Assembly: GCA_001790855.1 (NCBI GenBank)
Contig: MGDH01000042.1
Location: 1-64,000, forward strand
DNA: 64,000 nucleotides
Direction of reading: 5' to 3'
Source: Candidatus Schekmanbacteria bacterium RIFCSPLOWO2_02_FULL_38_14
Lineage (GTDB): Bacteria > Schekmanbacteria > GWA2-38-11
Position numbers and translations under genes: made by a program. This document shows positions 33,660-38,136 of the stretch, piece after piece. The notes below the pieces were generated by a model. That model saw only the letters and a list, made by a program, of their open reading frames with translations, was not told the DNA's origin and searched no databases. The first letter of the stretch is position 1; each line of letters opens with the position of its first letter.

Positions 33660-34940
33660 ATGGATGCCAATAGTTATAAAAAATTTTTCTCGCTGATGCT
33701 TAAAGGCGATTATGAAGAAACGCCTCTGTTTCTTCCTGTCAGTTATCCAAGAATTGGCATTTATACCGGCAACGGTTCATCCCACTCGTGGCTTTGGCTT
33801 GCTGAGCTTTTTGAAAAATATGGCCTTTATGATATATCTTTTATCAACGGGGAAAACATTCAAAATGATGCTCTTGACAGAATAAATATTTTTATTGTTT
33901 CAGGAGGCGATACCTTTGCCATTGCTGAAGAAATAGGGGAAAATGGCAGCAACAAGATAAGAGACTTCCTGGAAAACGGAGGTTCATATCTGGGAATATG
34001 TGCCGGTGCATATCTGATGCTTAACTCTTCTAAGACCCCTCTTGATTTTTTTAATCTTACTGGCGGGAAGATAAAAAACCTTTCCTCAAGCCTTCCGCTT
34101 TCAGTCAACATGAGTTATAAGTTTTCCATGCCCTATGGCTGCCAGTACCTGTATCATCCTGTAAGGGGCTCAATGCAAATTAAATTACTTGGCAAACCAC
34201 CCTTTTATAGCACAGATACTATAGTCTCACCTGTATTTGGCGGGGGTTTTATCACTCCTTCAAATGATTTAACACCTCTTGCAAATTATCATGGTTTCAC
34301 AAAAGATACTATCTTCCTCGTCGATGAAAAGACAGCCTCTGAAACAGTAATCGGGTCCTGTGCTGCTGCTAAAAGTTTTTATGGTAAAGGGGTAATCTTT
34401 CTTTTCAGCCCGCATTTTGAACACCCGATGTTTCCTGATGGGAATAATATAATAATAGATACAATATGTTACGGGAATGCTAACAAAAAATCAGAAAATT
34501 TTTGTCATAATCCCTCCACTTTGATCATTGATTCTCCTGGCAGAGGAATTTTAAAAAAGATAAAAAGCCTTTTGAGTAATTCCAGAATTGTAGCAGGAGG
34601 GTTTCACGGAACCGCACTTTACTGGAAAATTGGAAACAAGATGTGGGAGGCAGAAAAATTTTCGGTTTTTCTTGAAACCATATGGAAGCGATTTAGCAAT
34701 ACAGAAAAAGATTCCTTTGGTTTACGAATTAACCTGTCAGAGGCACAGGAATTAGAAAGACTCTCAGCAGATACATTAGACAATTTAAAGAAGCTAAAAT
34801 CTGAAATAAGTTCTGGCAAGGATTCTGAAGAAACATTAAAAAAACTTCTTCTTGCTCTTAGTAAACTATCATCTGAGTTTTTTGATATCTATTTTAAATC
34901 AAAACTTGAAAAAGCATTGCAATCAAAGATTGAAAAGTAA
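33660..34940 (+). CDS. BPL_N-type glutamine-amidotransferase-like protein with a helical C-terminal extension
   Basis: Residues about 30-270 match the BPL_N family (PF09825), a class I glutamine-amidotransferase-like fold. IGIYTGNGSSH is the first strand, IFIVSGGDTF the second, LGICAGAYLML has the nucleophile Cys114, and a later FSPHFEHP supplies a likely catalytic His. The last 150 residues are helical, charged and unlike anything I know. In eukaryotes the domain precedes biotin protein ligase; bacterial stand-alone members have no firm function. It is followed by the promoter of the next gene. Confidence 0.7.
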   Translation: MDANSYKKFFSLMLKGDYEETPLFLPVSYPRIGIYTGNGSSHSWLWLAELFEKYGLYDISFINGENIQNDALDRINIFIVSGGDTFAIAEEIGENGSNKIRDFLENGGSYLGICAGAYLMLNSSKTPLDFFNLTGGKIKNLSSSLPLSVNMSYKFSMPYGCQYLYHPVRGSMQIKLLGKPPFYSTDTIVSPVFGGGFITPSNDLTPLANYHGFTKDTIFLVDEKTASETVIGSCAAAKSFYGKGVIFLFSPHFEHPMFPDGNNIIIDTICYGNANKKSENFCHNPSTLIIDSPGRGILKKIKSLLSNSRIVAGGFHGTALYWKIGNKMWEAEKFSVFLETIWKRFSNTEKDSFGLRINLSEAQELERLSADTLDNLKKLKSEISSGKDSEETLKKLLLALSKLSSEFFDIYFKSKLEKALQSKIEK

Positions 34941-34957: not shown

Positions 34958-34985
34958 TTGACATGCAGAAAATTTGTGATATTAT
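34958..34985 (+). promoter_or_regulatory. Sigma-70-type promoter for the PilZ gene
   Basis: TTGACA (34958-34963) and TATTAT (34980-34985) are spaced by 16 bp, a near-consensus housekeeping promoter. The transcript would start near 34992 and give a leader of about 45 bases before the GTG start at 35039. Confidence 0.65.
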
Positions 34986-35038: not shown

Positions 35039-35923
35039 GTGAATAAATATTATCTTCCAGATATATTAGAATTAAACCTCAAGTCCAAGACAATTAACAC
35101 ACTCTTTACTGAAGTAGCTGAACTTATTCTAAAATCCTCAAAAATAGTTGATTCTGTAGCTGCGGTTAATGAATTCAAAAACTTAGAAAAATTCTGGTCA
35201 AAAAAAGGCTATGAATTGATTGAAAAAGAAAAAGATTTTTATCCCGAAGGGGTTTTCCCCCTTTGTATAAATTACTGTTCTTTTATTGATGCTTCTGGGT
35301 CGCTTATGTTTTTGGGAAGATCAAATGAAGGAATCGATATTCAAACAGAAAAACTACCCCCAGCAAAAGTTATCTGTTTCGTTCTATTCCACTCAATTGA
35401 ATCATACCAGAATCTTGACCACAGGGATGCTGAAAAGGAAAAAATCAATCTCTACTGGAATAATCTTCTGAAAAACCAGAATTTCCTTAACAGGTTCCTC
35501 TCACTAAAGGATGTAACAGAGTTTCAGAAAACTACTGAAGAAATCTTGGGATTTTCTGAAAAAAGAAAACACCCAAGATTCAAAACTTCAGAATTTGCTT
35601 ACTGTGCAATGTTTGGCACCAACACAGAAAAAGATAAAAAGGAAACAGCCAGGATTGTAGACATCAGTCTCTCAGGATTCCTGCTGGAGCATATGTCTCC
35701 ATACACCCTAAACTCAATTTTAGAAATAGAGCCTTTTTTGGATAATGAAAAACTGTATTTATGCGGCAAGGTCTGCAGGACTCAAAAATATGGTACAGAG
35801 GATGGAATAAAATTTACTTCAGGAATAAATATAACAAATATTTCTGAGTTTGATGAAACTATACTAAACAAATATCTAGGAAATCTTTCTCCATTAACTC
35901 AGCTTAAAAACTCACAACAATAA
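35039..35923 (+). CDS. PTS EIIA(Ntr)-like domain fused to a c-di-GMP-binding PilZ domain
   Basis: The C-terminal part (residues about 174-290) is a PilZ domain: RKHPRF (R176 and R180 as RxxxR) and DISLSG (208-213) form the complete c-di-GMP site. The N-terminal 165 residues have the layout of EIIA type 2/PtsN proteins: an opening helix EVAELILKSS, then LGRSNEGIDIQ, KVICFVLFHSIES, and a final helix pair with NNLLKNQNFLNRFLSLKDV. The IPHG stretch with the phosphorylated His of EIIA is replaced by VFPLCINYC, so phosphotransfer is unlikely. The start is GTG. The EIIA assignment is by pattern only. The protein may couple c-di-GMP to a protein partner; no PTS gene is near. Confidence 0.65.
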   Translation: MNKYYLPDILELNLKSKTINTLFTEVAELILKSSKIVDSVAAVNEFKNLEKFWSKKGYELIEKEKDFYPEGVFPLCINYCSFIDASGSLMFLGRSNEGIDIQTEKLPPAKVICFVLFHSIESYQNLDHRDAEKEKINLYWNNLLKNQNFLNRFLSLKDVTEFQKTTEEILGFSEKRKHPRFKTSEFAYCAMFGTNTEKDKKETARIVDISLSGFLLEHMSPYTLNSILEIEPFLDNEKLYLCGKVCRTQKYGTEDGIKFTSGINITNISEFDETILNKYLGNLSPLTQLKNSQQ

Positions 35924-35949: not shown

Positions 35950-38136
35950 TTATTCTTCAGCTGAATAAATCCTATAATAGTTTTCGTAATTTGTTATTAC
36001 TTTTTTAATGTAATTTTTAGTTTCAGGATAAGGTATTGATTCAATAAATTCATCAAGCTCTCTATCAGGAAATCTTGATTGCCATTCTTTAACCTGGTGC
36101 TCTCCTGCATTATAAGCTGCAATTGCAAATACAAGATTATTGTTATATTTCAACAAAAGCTTTGAAATATATTTAATGCCTAACAAAATATTAGTTTCTG
36201 ATTCATAAAGTTGATTTTTTTCAAAGTAGTCTTCTCCATTTTCCTTCAATATTTTTAGCGCTGTTTTCGGCATTATCTGTAGCAAACCAATTGCACCTGC
36301 AGGAGACAAGGAGTTTGGGTCAAAAAAACTCTCCTGTCTCATTATTGCCAGCACAAGAAAGGGATCTATTCCATTATCCATTGAATACTTGTACACTATA
36401 TCCCAGTATGCTGCGGGATAGAATATCTCATTTAACTTTACAGCCATCAAATTTGTTTCCTCTGATAAAGAACCGGACATATTGCTAAGGATTTTTATTG
36501 GAATTGTGTAATTCCCTGTCATCCATAAAATCTCGGCAAGGGAGATTAGACTTTCCCTGTCATTTTTTTGAATTGTTTTTTTCGCATATTTCAATTCAGC
36601 TATTGAGTCGTCAGCCAAGCCTATTCTCCATAAAACCATAGCTCTTTTTATAAAATCCCTTGCCCCGTCTGAAGTCATCTTTCTTATAATCTCGTTCCAT
36701 ACATCCAGAGATATCTCTTTGGTTTTTGACTTGTCTGAACCATCATTTATATTTCTTCCATATCTTTCAAAACGGCTTGGGTTGTAATCATAAAAAACAT
36801 CTTTATTTTTTATTTTATAATTGCACAAGAGCCAGTAGTAACTCTGATAATCTTTGATACTGTCTTTTAAAACATCAACGGCTCTGTCTCTGTCTTTATT
36901 CTTTTCCAGTGATTTATAACACCAGTATATTGATTTATTTATGCTCTCACTGTTTTTAAAGTTCTCTCTTTCTTTAAGAAAATATTCTGCAGATTCTGAT
37001 AACCCCCCTTTCAGATAATAAACCCAGCCTATGTGCCAGAGAACATCATCTGTGTAAGCACTATCTTTATCTTTTTTTAAAACCTCATTGAACGATTCAA
37101 TGGCTTCATTAAAGTTTTTTTCATCCTCGTAATACCGTCCTGCAGTATAGAGCATATCTTTTACAAACTCGCTATCAGGAAACTTTTCAATAAGTTTCTT
37201 TTTTACCCACTCAAACCCTTCCTTGTAATTTATCTGATAGCATGCTCTGGCAAATTTATAGTAGATTAAAGGCAGCCGTATCCTGTCGTTTTCCTTTTCA
37301 ATCTCTTCTATTAATTTTTTATAAGAACTAACTGCATTGAGATATTTTTTCATCCTCTCATAACATTCAGCCATCTTTCTCATTACATCGAGTTTATATT
37401 GACGCTCCGCATTAGAGTTCAGTATGAATCTTGAAATTGAAAGGGTCTCGTCAAATTTTCTCGCATCATAAAACTTATCAGCCCTTATTAAAAGCTCGGA
37501 AGTCCTGAACATGCTCTCTATTGATTCTGTCTTATATGCATCCTTCAGAAATTTCTCTGCTTCTCTGCTCTCTCTGCTCAGTGGATAGTTTATCCACAGA
37601 TAATTGAAAATCTCCTTCCCCTTATCATTTTCCCCTATATAAACATAAGACAATCCTATCCGGTAATAAGAGCTTGCAATAAAATTGCTTACAGGGAATT
37701 TTCGGTTGAACTCATTAAAAATACCCCGAGCCTCTTCCCATTTCATATTGGCAAATAATATATTTCCCATTTCATACATACATTCTTCAACCCATCTGCT
37801 CTTTGGAAACTCATTGAACAGCACTCCATAGATTCTCCTGCACTCATCATAGTCATATCTATACTCTGCAATTTTAAAAAGATAATACAGGGAATAATCC
37901 TTTATCTCAGGAAAATCAGTTATTGCTTTTTCAAATTCTCTGACTGCTTTATCAAATTCATTTCTTTTGTAATAATCCAGACCGCCAAGATATGGGTTTA
38001 ATTCCTGTTTTCCCTCTTTTGCAGGAACAGTCTTTAATTCGCCTGCTATCTTTCCATTCCGATCTTTCAGAGAACTGATACAACCTGTAAGGATTAACAA
38101 AATGAGGCTTAAAACTGCTGGAAATTTTCTGAGCAT
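35950..38136 (-). CDS. Lipoprotein soluble lytic murein transglycosylase (Slt-like) with TPR repeats
   Basis: Cleaves peptidoglycan glycan strands in the periplasm. The N-terminus is a lipoprotein signal with lipobox LTGC near residue 19. Residues about 45-560 are tetratricopeptide-like helices (FDKAVREFEKAI, FNEAIESFNEVL). The SLT domain at about 580-715 has MRQESFFDPNSLSPAGAIGL, with the catalytic Glu in RQES, then LLQIMP and AIAAYNAGEHQV. The 728 residues are typical of Slt70 homologues. It ends close to the convergent PilZ-domain gene. Confidence 0.92.
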   Translation of the reverse strand: MLRKFPAVLSLILLILTGCISSLKDRNGKIAGELKTVPAKEGKQELNPYLGGLDYYKRNEFDKAVREFEKAITDFPEIKDYSLYYLFKIAEYRYDYDECRRIYGVLFNEFPKSRWVEECMYEMGNILFANMKWEEARGIFNEFNRKFPVSNFIASSYYRIGLSYVYIGENDKGKEIFNYLWINYPLSRESREAEKFLKDAYKTESIESMFRTSELLIRADKFYDARKFDETLSISRFILNSNAERQYKLDVMRKMAECYERMKKYLNAVSSYKKLIEEIEKENDRIRLPLIYYKFARACYQINYKEGFEWVKKKLIEKFPDSEFVKDMLYTAGRYYEDEKNFNEAIESFNEVLKKDKDSAYTDDVLWHIGWVYYLKGGLSESAEYFLKERENFKNSESINKSIYWCYKSLEKNKDRDRAVDVLKDSIKDYQSYYWLLCNYKIKNKDVFYDYNPSRFERYGRNINDGSDKSKTKEISLDVWNEIIRKMTSDGARDFIKRAMVLWRIGLADDSIAELKYAKKTIQKNDRESLISLAEILWMTGNYTIPIKILSNMSGSLSEETNLMAVKLNEIFYPAAYWDIVYKYSMDNGIDPFLVLAIMRQESFFDPNSLSPAGAIGLLQIMPKTALKILKENGEDYFEKNQLYESETNILLGIKYISKLLLKYNNNLVFAIAAYNAGEHQVKEWQSRFPDRELDEFIESIPYPETKNYIKKVITNYENYYRIYSAEE

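Follow-up and report, generated by a model that had tools for sequence, protein, structure and literature searches.

The gene at 35039..35923 (+) of the window (the whole 64,000-nucleotide stretch of DNA analysed here) encodes a 294-residue protein in which an EIIA type-2-like domain lacking its phosphorylatable histidine is fused to a PilZ domain that retains the motifs for c-di-GMP. The gene, with a GTG start, is defined by its open reading frame and by orthologues in L004, L005 and L006. An EIIA domain is normally a phosphate carrier that works by contact with other proteins, and PilZ domains read c-di-GMP; a phosphorylation-dead EIIA joined to PilZ would place a docking face of the EIIA type under c-di-GMP control. 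We consider it probable that the fusion works as an adaptor gated by c-di-GMP, which would dock on a target protein by its pseudo-EIIA face, without phosphotransfer. Both parts belong to known kinds; as far as the tools used here show, the novelty lies in the pairing of EIIA with PilZ and in the conservation of the dead site. The protein is a specific, testable candidate for a c-di-GMP effector in the Candidatus Schekmanbacteria, a phylum of which we know of no cultured member.

Distribution and genomic context

The window lies on contig C42 in a Candidatus Schekmanbacteria genome of 2.68 Mb (99% complete). Full-length orthologues are present in all three other genomes of the order that were examined, with 62, 40 and 40% identity to the window protein, and it is on these four sequences only that the evidence for the family rests. 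No orthologue of the fusion was found outside the four genomes, either in a search of 98 genomes or in another of 386; among the genomes searched, the EIIA-PilZ fusion was seen in the Candidatus Schekmanbacteria phylum only, at a single conserved locus. An HMM of the N-terminal domain, run against 386 genomes, likewise gave no strong match beyond the four that bear an orthologue: the second-best outside match (E 0.0056) coincides with an ordinary PtsN (L034/L057), and the others were weak. When GTDB contigs were scanned with the alignment of the N-terminal domain, the sole true return came from Schekmanbacteria GWA2_38_11 (L022), a match in Variovorax (L023) being attributed to chance, as it lies on overlapping GC-rich frames with no EIIA-like ORF. 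PilZ was not seen in 16 long EIIA-2 frames of other phyla, read by eye, and no description of an EIIA-PilZ protein was found in the open-access papers searched. The combination of a pseudo-EIIA with PilZ appears to be undescribed, and the first-pass annotation, which knew of no named family with this order of domains, agrees with what was found in the other genomes and in the literature.

The order of genes around the fusion, mfd-trpS-M50-pheA (-), a BPL_N-like gene and the fusion (+), and an SLT transglycosylase gene (-), is the same in 4/4 genomes within the stretches compared. The upstream neighbour (33660..34940, +) codes for a BPL_N/class I amidotransferase-like protein of 426 residues (PF09825, E 3.7e-12) and occupies the same place in all four genomes; the conserved convergent neighbour (35950..38136, -) codes for a TPR lytic transglycosylase (SLT; PF01464, E 1.4e-28). 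The interval that separates the fusion from the BPL_N-like gene contains a strong sigma-70-like promoter match, TTGACA-16-TATTAT (34958..34985, +), with a TG before the -10 hexamer (extended -10) and 11/12 matches, identified by its fit to the consensus only. A similar arrangement, TTGACA-18-TATTAT, was seen by eye upstream of the L004 orthologue. A homologue of the BPL_N-like protein (37% identity; L096:1372-2622, -) is found in a genome outside the order (G017), with no EIIA-PilZ gene adjoining. The idea that the BPL_N-like gene and the fusion form an obligate operon pair is weakened, because the fusion has a promoter-like site of its own and because the homologue in G017 occurs without it.

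Fold of the N-terminal domain

It is profile-profile comparison that carries the assignment of the N-terminal domain (residues 5-166; 35051..35536, +). A profile of the four orthologues, compared by hhalign with a profile of 34 EIIA-2 domains taken from many genomes, matched with a probability of 96.6% (E 5.6e-10, score 62.6) in a co-linear alignment of 136 columns, covering residues 7-168, and the probability was still 96.5% when no Schekmanbacteria EIIA was included. The controls scored far lower: 200 column-permuted copies gave a mean of 12.6 (sd 2.3, maximum 22.3) and reversed profiles gave 15, which puts the observed score about 21 sd above the permuted controls. As sequence evidence, this comparison is decisive in placing the N-terminal half with EIIA-2. 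Within the alignment with the EIIA-2 set, the region LMFLGRSNEGID (residues 90-101; 35306..35341, +) corresponds to the GRS-xx-GID strand.

Plain HMM and pairwise searches are what speaks for a domain unrelated to EIIA and of another fold, in which the LGRSNEGID match would have arisen by chance. PTS_EIIA_2 (PF00359) was not called by hmmscan in any of the four members, which stayed below the curated cut-off; a search with PF00359 across the four genomes matched other loci and never the fusion, and pairwise BLAST was near chance. With filters off, hmmsearch with an EIIA-2 HMM returned the four members at E 8.6e-5, 0.0022, 0.0075 and 0.031, values that are borderline alone, the best of 2000 shuffled decoys having an E of 0.019. 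A sequence search of the PDB with the profiles gave nothing useful. Against an unrelated fold stand the margin of the hhalign score over its permuted controls and the structure model. The best of five AlphaFold2 models of residues 1-169 has a pLDDT of 78.4 and a pTM of 0.75 (the other four, 50 or below), and was built from an alignment of the four orthologues only, with no EIIA sequence in it; its elements follow each other as they should in EIIA-2, a short first strand followed by two helices, three strands and three helices, and it finds EIIA-2 structures first. The leading Foldseek matches in the PDB were 1xiz (E 1.2e-4) and the HIV epitope scaffolds built on it, followed by IIA-Ntr (2a0j, 1a6j, 3urr) and IIA-Mtl (1a3a), with a probability of 1.00 and TM-scores of 0.5-0.68; to EIIA the TM-scores were 0.5-0.6, at an rmsd of about 5 A. 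The cytoplasmic domains of SLC4 proteins (AE2, AE3, band 3) were also among the matches. The full-length model is poor (pLDDT 58), and its Foldseek matches were PilZ domains and spurious ones to Nsp9. An unrelated fold is on these grounds extremely improbable, and all but refuted.

The first-pass annotation had read the PtsN/EIIA type-2 pattern into residues 1-165, and had named beforehand, as the test that could refute it, profile and structure searches with these residues; both lead to the EIIA type-2 fold, and not elsewhere. In speaking of the nitrogen-PTS kind it says a little more than the data allow, since IIA-Ntr, IIA-Mtl/Fru and SLC4 domains match the model about equally. With PtsN/EIIA-Ntr and other PTS EIIA type-2 proteins (PF00359; 1a6j, 2a0j, 3urr, 1a3a, 1xiz) the domain has in common the fold, the order of elements, the GRSxxGID strand and the length. 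It differs from them in having Tyr79 for the phosphorylatable histidine, in missing the R-E / S-T-G residues, in a longer helix 2, in extra residues before helix 3, and in the attached PilZ. The cytoplasmic domain of the SLC4 anion exchangers (band 3, AE2; 1hyn, 8gv9) has an EIIA-like fold as well; SLC4 cytoplasmic domains share this fold without its phosphorylation and bind proteins, which makes them a useful precedent. They are, however, eukaryotic, joined to a membrane transporter and without PilZ; the fusion would be a bacterial counterpart of the histidine-less EIIA fold of animal anion exchangers. Fusions of EIIA type-2 with CBS pairs, HTH or zinc ribbons in other phyla likewise put EIIA-2 to regulatory use apart from any sugar transporter but, unlike the Schekmanbacteria fusion, keep the active-site histidine, and no PilZ was seen in them.

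Loss of the active site

The phosphorylated histidine of EIIA-2 is replaced by Tyr79, within an invariant N78-Y79-C80 that stands in place of P-H-G (35270..35278, +). I-A-I-P-H-G is aligned with C-I-N-Y-C in all three MAFFT modes and under all three hhalign settings, such that His becomes Tyr79, Pro becomes Asn78 and Ala becomes Cys/Thr76. Cys76 was considered as the replacement of the histidine (P-L-C for I-P-H) and rejected, because the alignment of Tyr79 is unanimous and, in addition, leaves the Ala position with a small residue (C/T76). The loss of histidine that the first-pass annotation had seen in VFPLCINYC for IPHG holds with every aligner, the positions now being refined to Tyr79 for His and Asn78 for Pro. 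When the family was checked for a retained histidine, no member had kept it (0/4) and all had Tyr (4/4).

The change extends beyond this residue. R52, E53 and T58 (L016 numbering) are invariant in the 34 EIIA-2 domains, and S57 and G61 nearly so; in the four orthologues the R-E / S-T-G residues are not kept as a set, and a longer helix and loop are found there instead. With no histidine at Tyr79 and the other EIIA-2 invariants not kept, the residues present make it very unlikely that the fusion protein accepts phosphate from HPr. At the same time, residues 71-98, around the old active site, are 57-61% identical between the window protein and the two members of the other family, as against 43-46% for the whole N-terminal domain and 35-37% for PilZ in the same comparison, which indicates that the old site is kept under constraint and is not decaying.

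PilZ domain and proposed mechanism

The C-terminal half contains a PilZ domain at residues 174-277 (35558..35869, +; PF07238, E 1.2e-7), with a score of 32.5 bits against a cut-off of 22.5, and of 27-41 bits in the three orthologues. As the first-pass annotation had it, both c-di-GMP motifs are in place: RxxxR as R176-K-H-P-R180 (35564..35578, +), kept in 4/4 orthologues, and DxSxxG as D208-I-S-L-S-G213 (35660..35677, +), which reads NxSxxG in three orthologues, so that in the alignment RxxxR and [D/N]xSxxG are both kept in all four. There are PilZ domains that fail to bind c-di-GMP; the motifs suggest that this one may bind it. The second messenger is probably made in these genomes, because each codes for 5-13 GGDEF domains. 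The fusion resembles two-domain PilZ effectors (YcgR, MrkH, REC-PilZ), which also have a C-terminal PilZ with RxxxR and [D/N]xSxxG behind another domain, and differs from them in that its N-terminal partner is a pseudo-EIIA, and neither a receiver nor an N domain of the YcgR type.

In the adaptor that we favour, binding of c-di-GMP at PilZ would alter how the two domains lie to each other or how far they are exposed, and the pseudo-EIIA would then dock on its target through the face of the former phosphorylation site, formed by the invariant N-Y-C, W53, F-H-S-x-E-S and N-x-Y-W-N-N. Docking would be of the kind seen with unphosphorylated PtsN or with the histidine-less SLC4 cytoplasmic domain, and no phosphoryl transfer by the fusion protein would be involved. 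Candidate targets are proteins with which the native PtsN of the cell interacts, HPr/EI, and the product of the neighbouring BPL_N-like gene. The same invariant cluster (N-Y-C, W53, H118-S-x-E-S, N-x-Y-W-N-N) might just as well form the walls of a ligand pocket, and PilZ domains can serve as output modules; the pseudo-EIIA might then be a regulatory lid or a small-molecule sensor, holding its ligand in what was once the active-site pocket, with PilZ as the output. We know of no precedent for ligand sensing by the EIIA-2 fold, which counts against such a sensor. As the fold is, in addition, known for protein docking (PMC13104625), we regard a lid or sensor as unlikely. A docking role for the pseudo-EIIA is the simplest reading, because PtsN exerts its effects through contacts with other proteins, for the most part while unphosphorylated (PMC13104625).

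Other relay proteins in the same genomes

All four genomes keep a normal, histidine-bearing PtsN and EI, and HPr is found in 3/4, the exception being G001 (70% complete). In the window genome, an ordinary PtsN with IPHG is encoded in an hpf-ptsN-hprK-EIIA-Man cluster, and HPr and EI are also present; the regulatory PTS is thus complete, and the fusion stands next to it as one more, divergent relative. The presence in one genome of a histidine-bearing PtsN beside hpf and hprK, together with HPr and EI, would suit a decoy within the nitrogen PTS, in which the domain competes with the cell's own PtsN for HPr or for PtsN targets and c-di-GMP tunes the output of PTS-Ntr. However, the conserved EIIA active-site residues (R-E, S-T-G-I-G, I-P-H) are all changed and the fusion gene is distant from the PTS cluster (contig C42 as against contig C9), and we find a decoy doubtful, a little more so than a lid or sensor.

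A second PilZ protein, a REC-PilZ, is present in 4/4 genomes (L002:1129-1860, +; L008:153-887, -; L011:1495-2235, -; L087:1492-2199, -). Its receiver is phosphorylation-dead, with a Gly (V/L-I-T/S-G) in the place of the Asp that is normally phosphorylated; the change of D to G was established for L002 by alignment with FixJ and other receivers, and read by eye in the other three. It is conceivable, if speculative, that c-di-GMP and PTS-Ntr are directly linked, a c-di-GMP-gated dead paralogue of PtsN competing with, or substituting for, unphosphorylated PtsN on its targets, and that PilZ effectors on phosphorylation-dead relay domains (compare REC-PilZ) are a recurring design; we would hold this broader proposal to be rather unlikely. 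Two Schekmanbacteria also have divergent second EIIA-2 proteins (L017:1459-1965, +; L020:1486-1968, +), in which the histidine is kept (FPHAR, FPHVR) and whose genes each lie downstream of an NtrC-type regulator.
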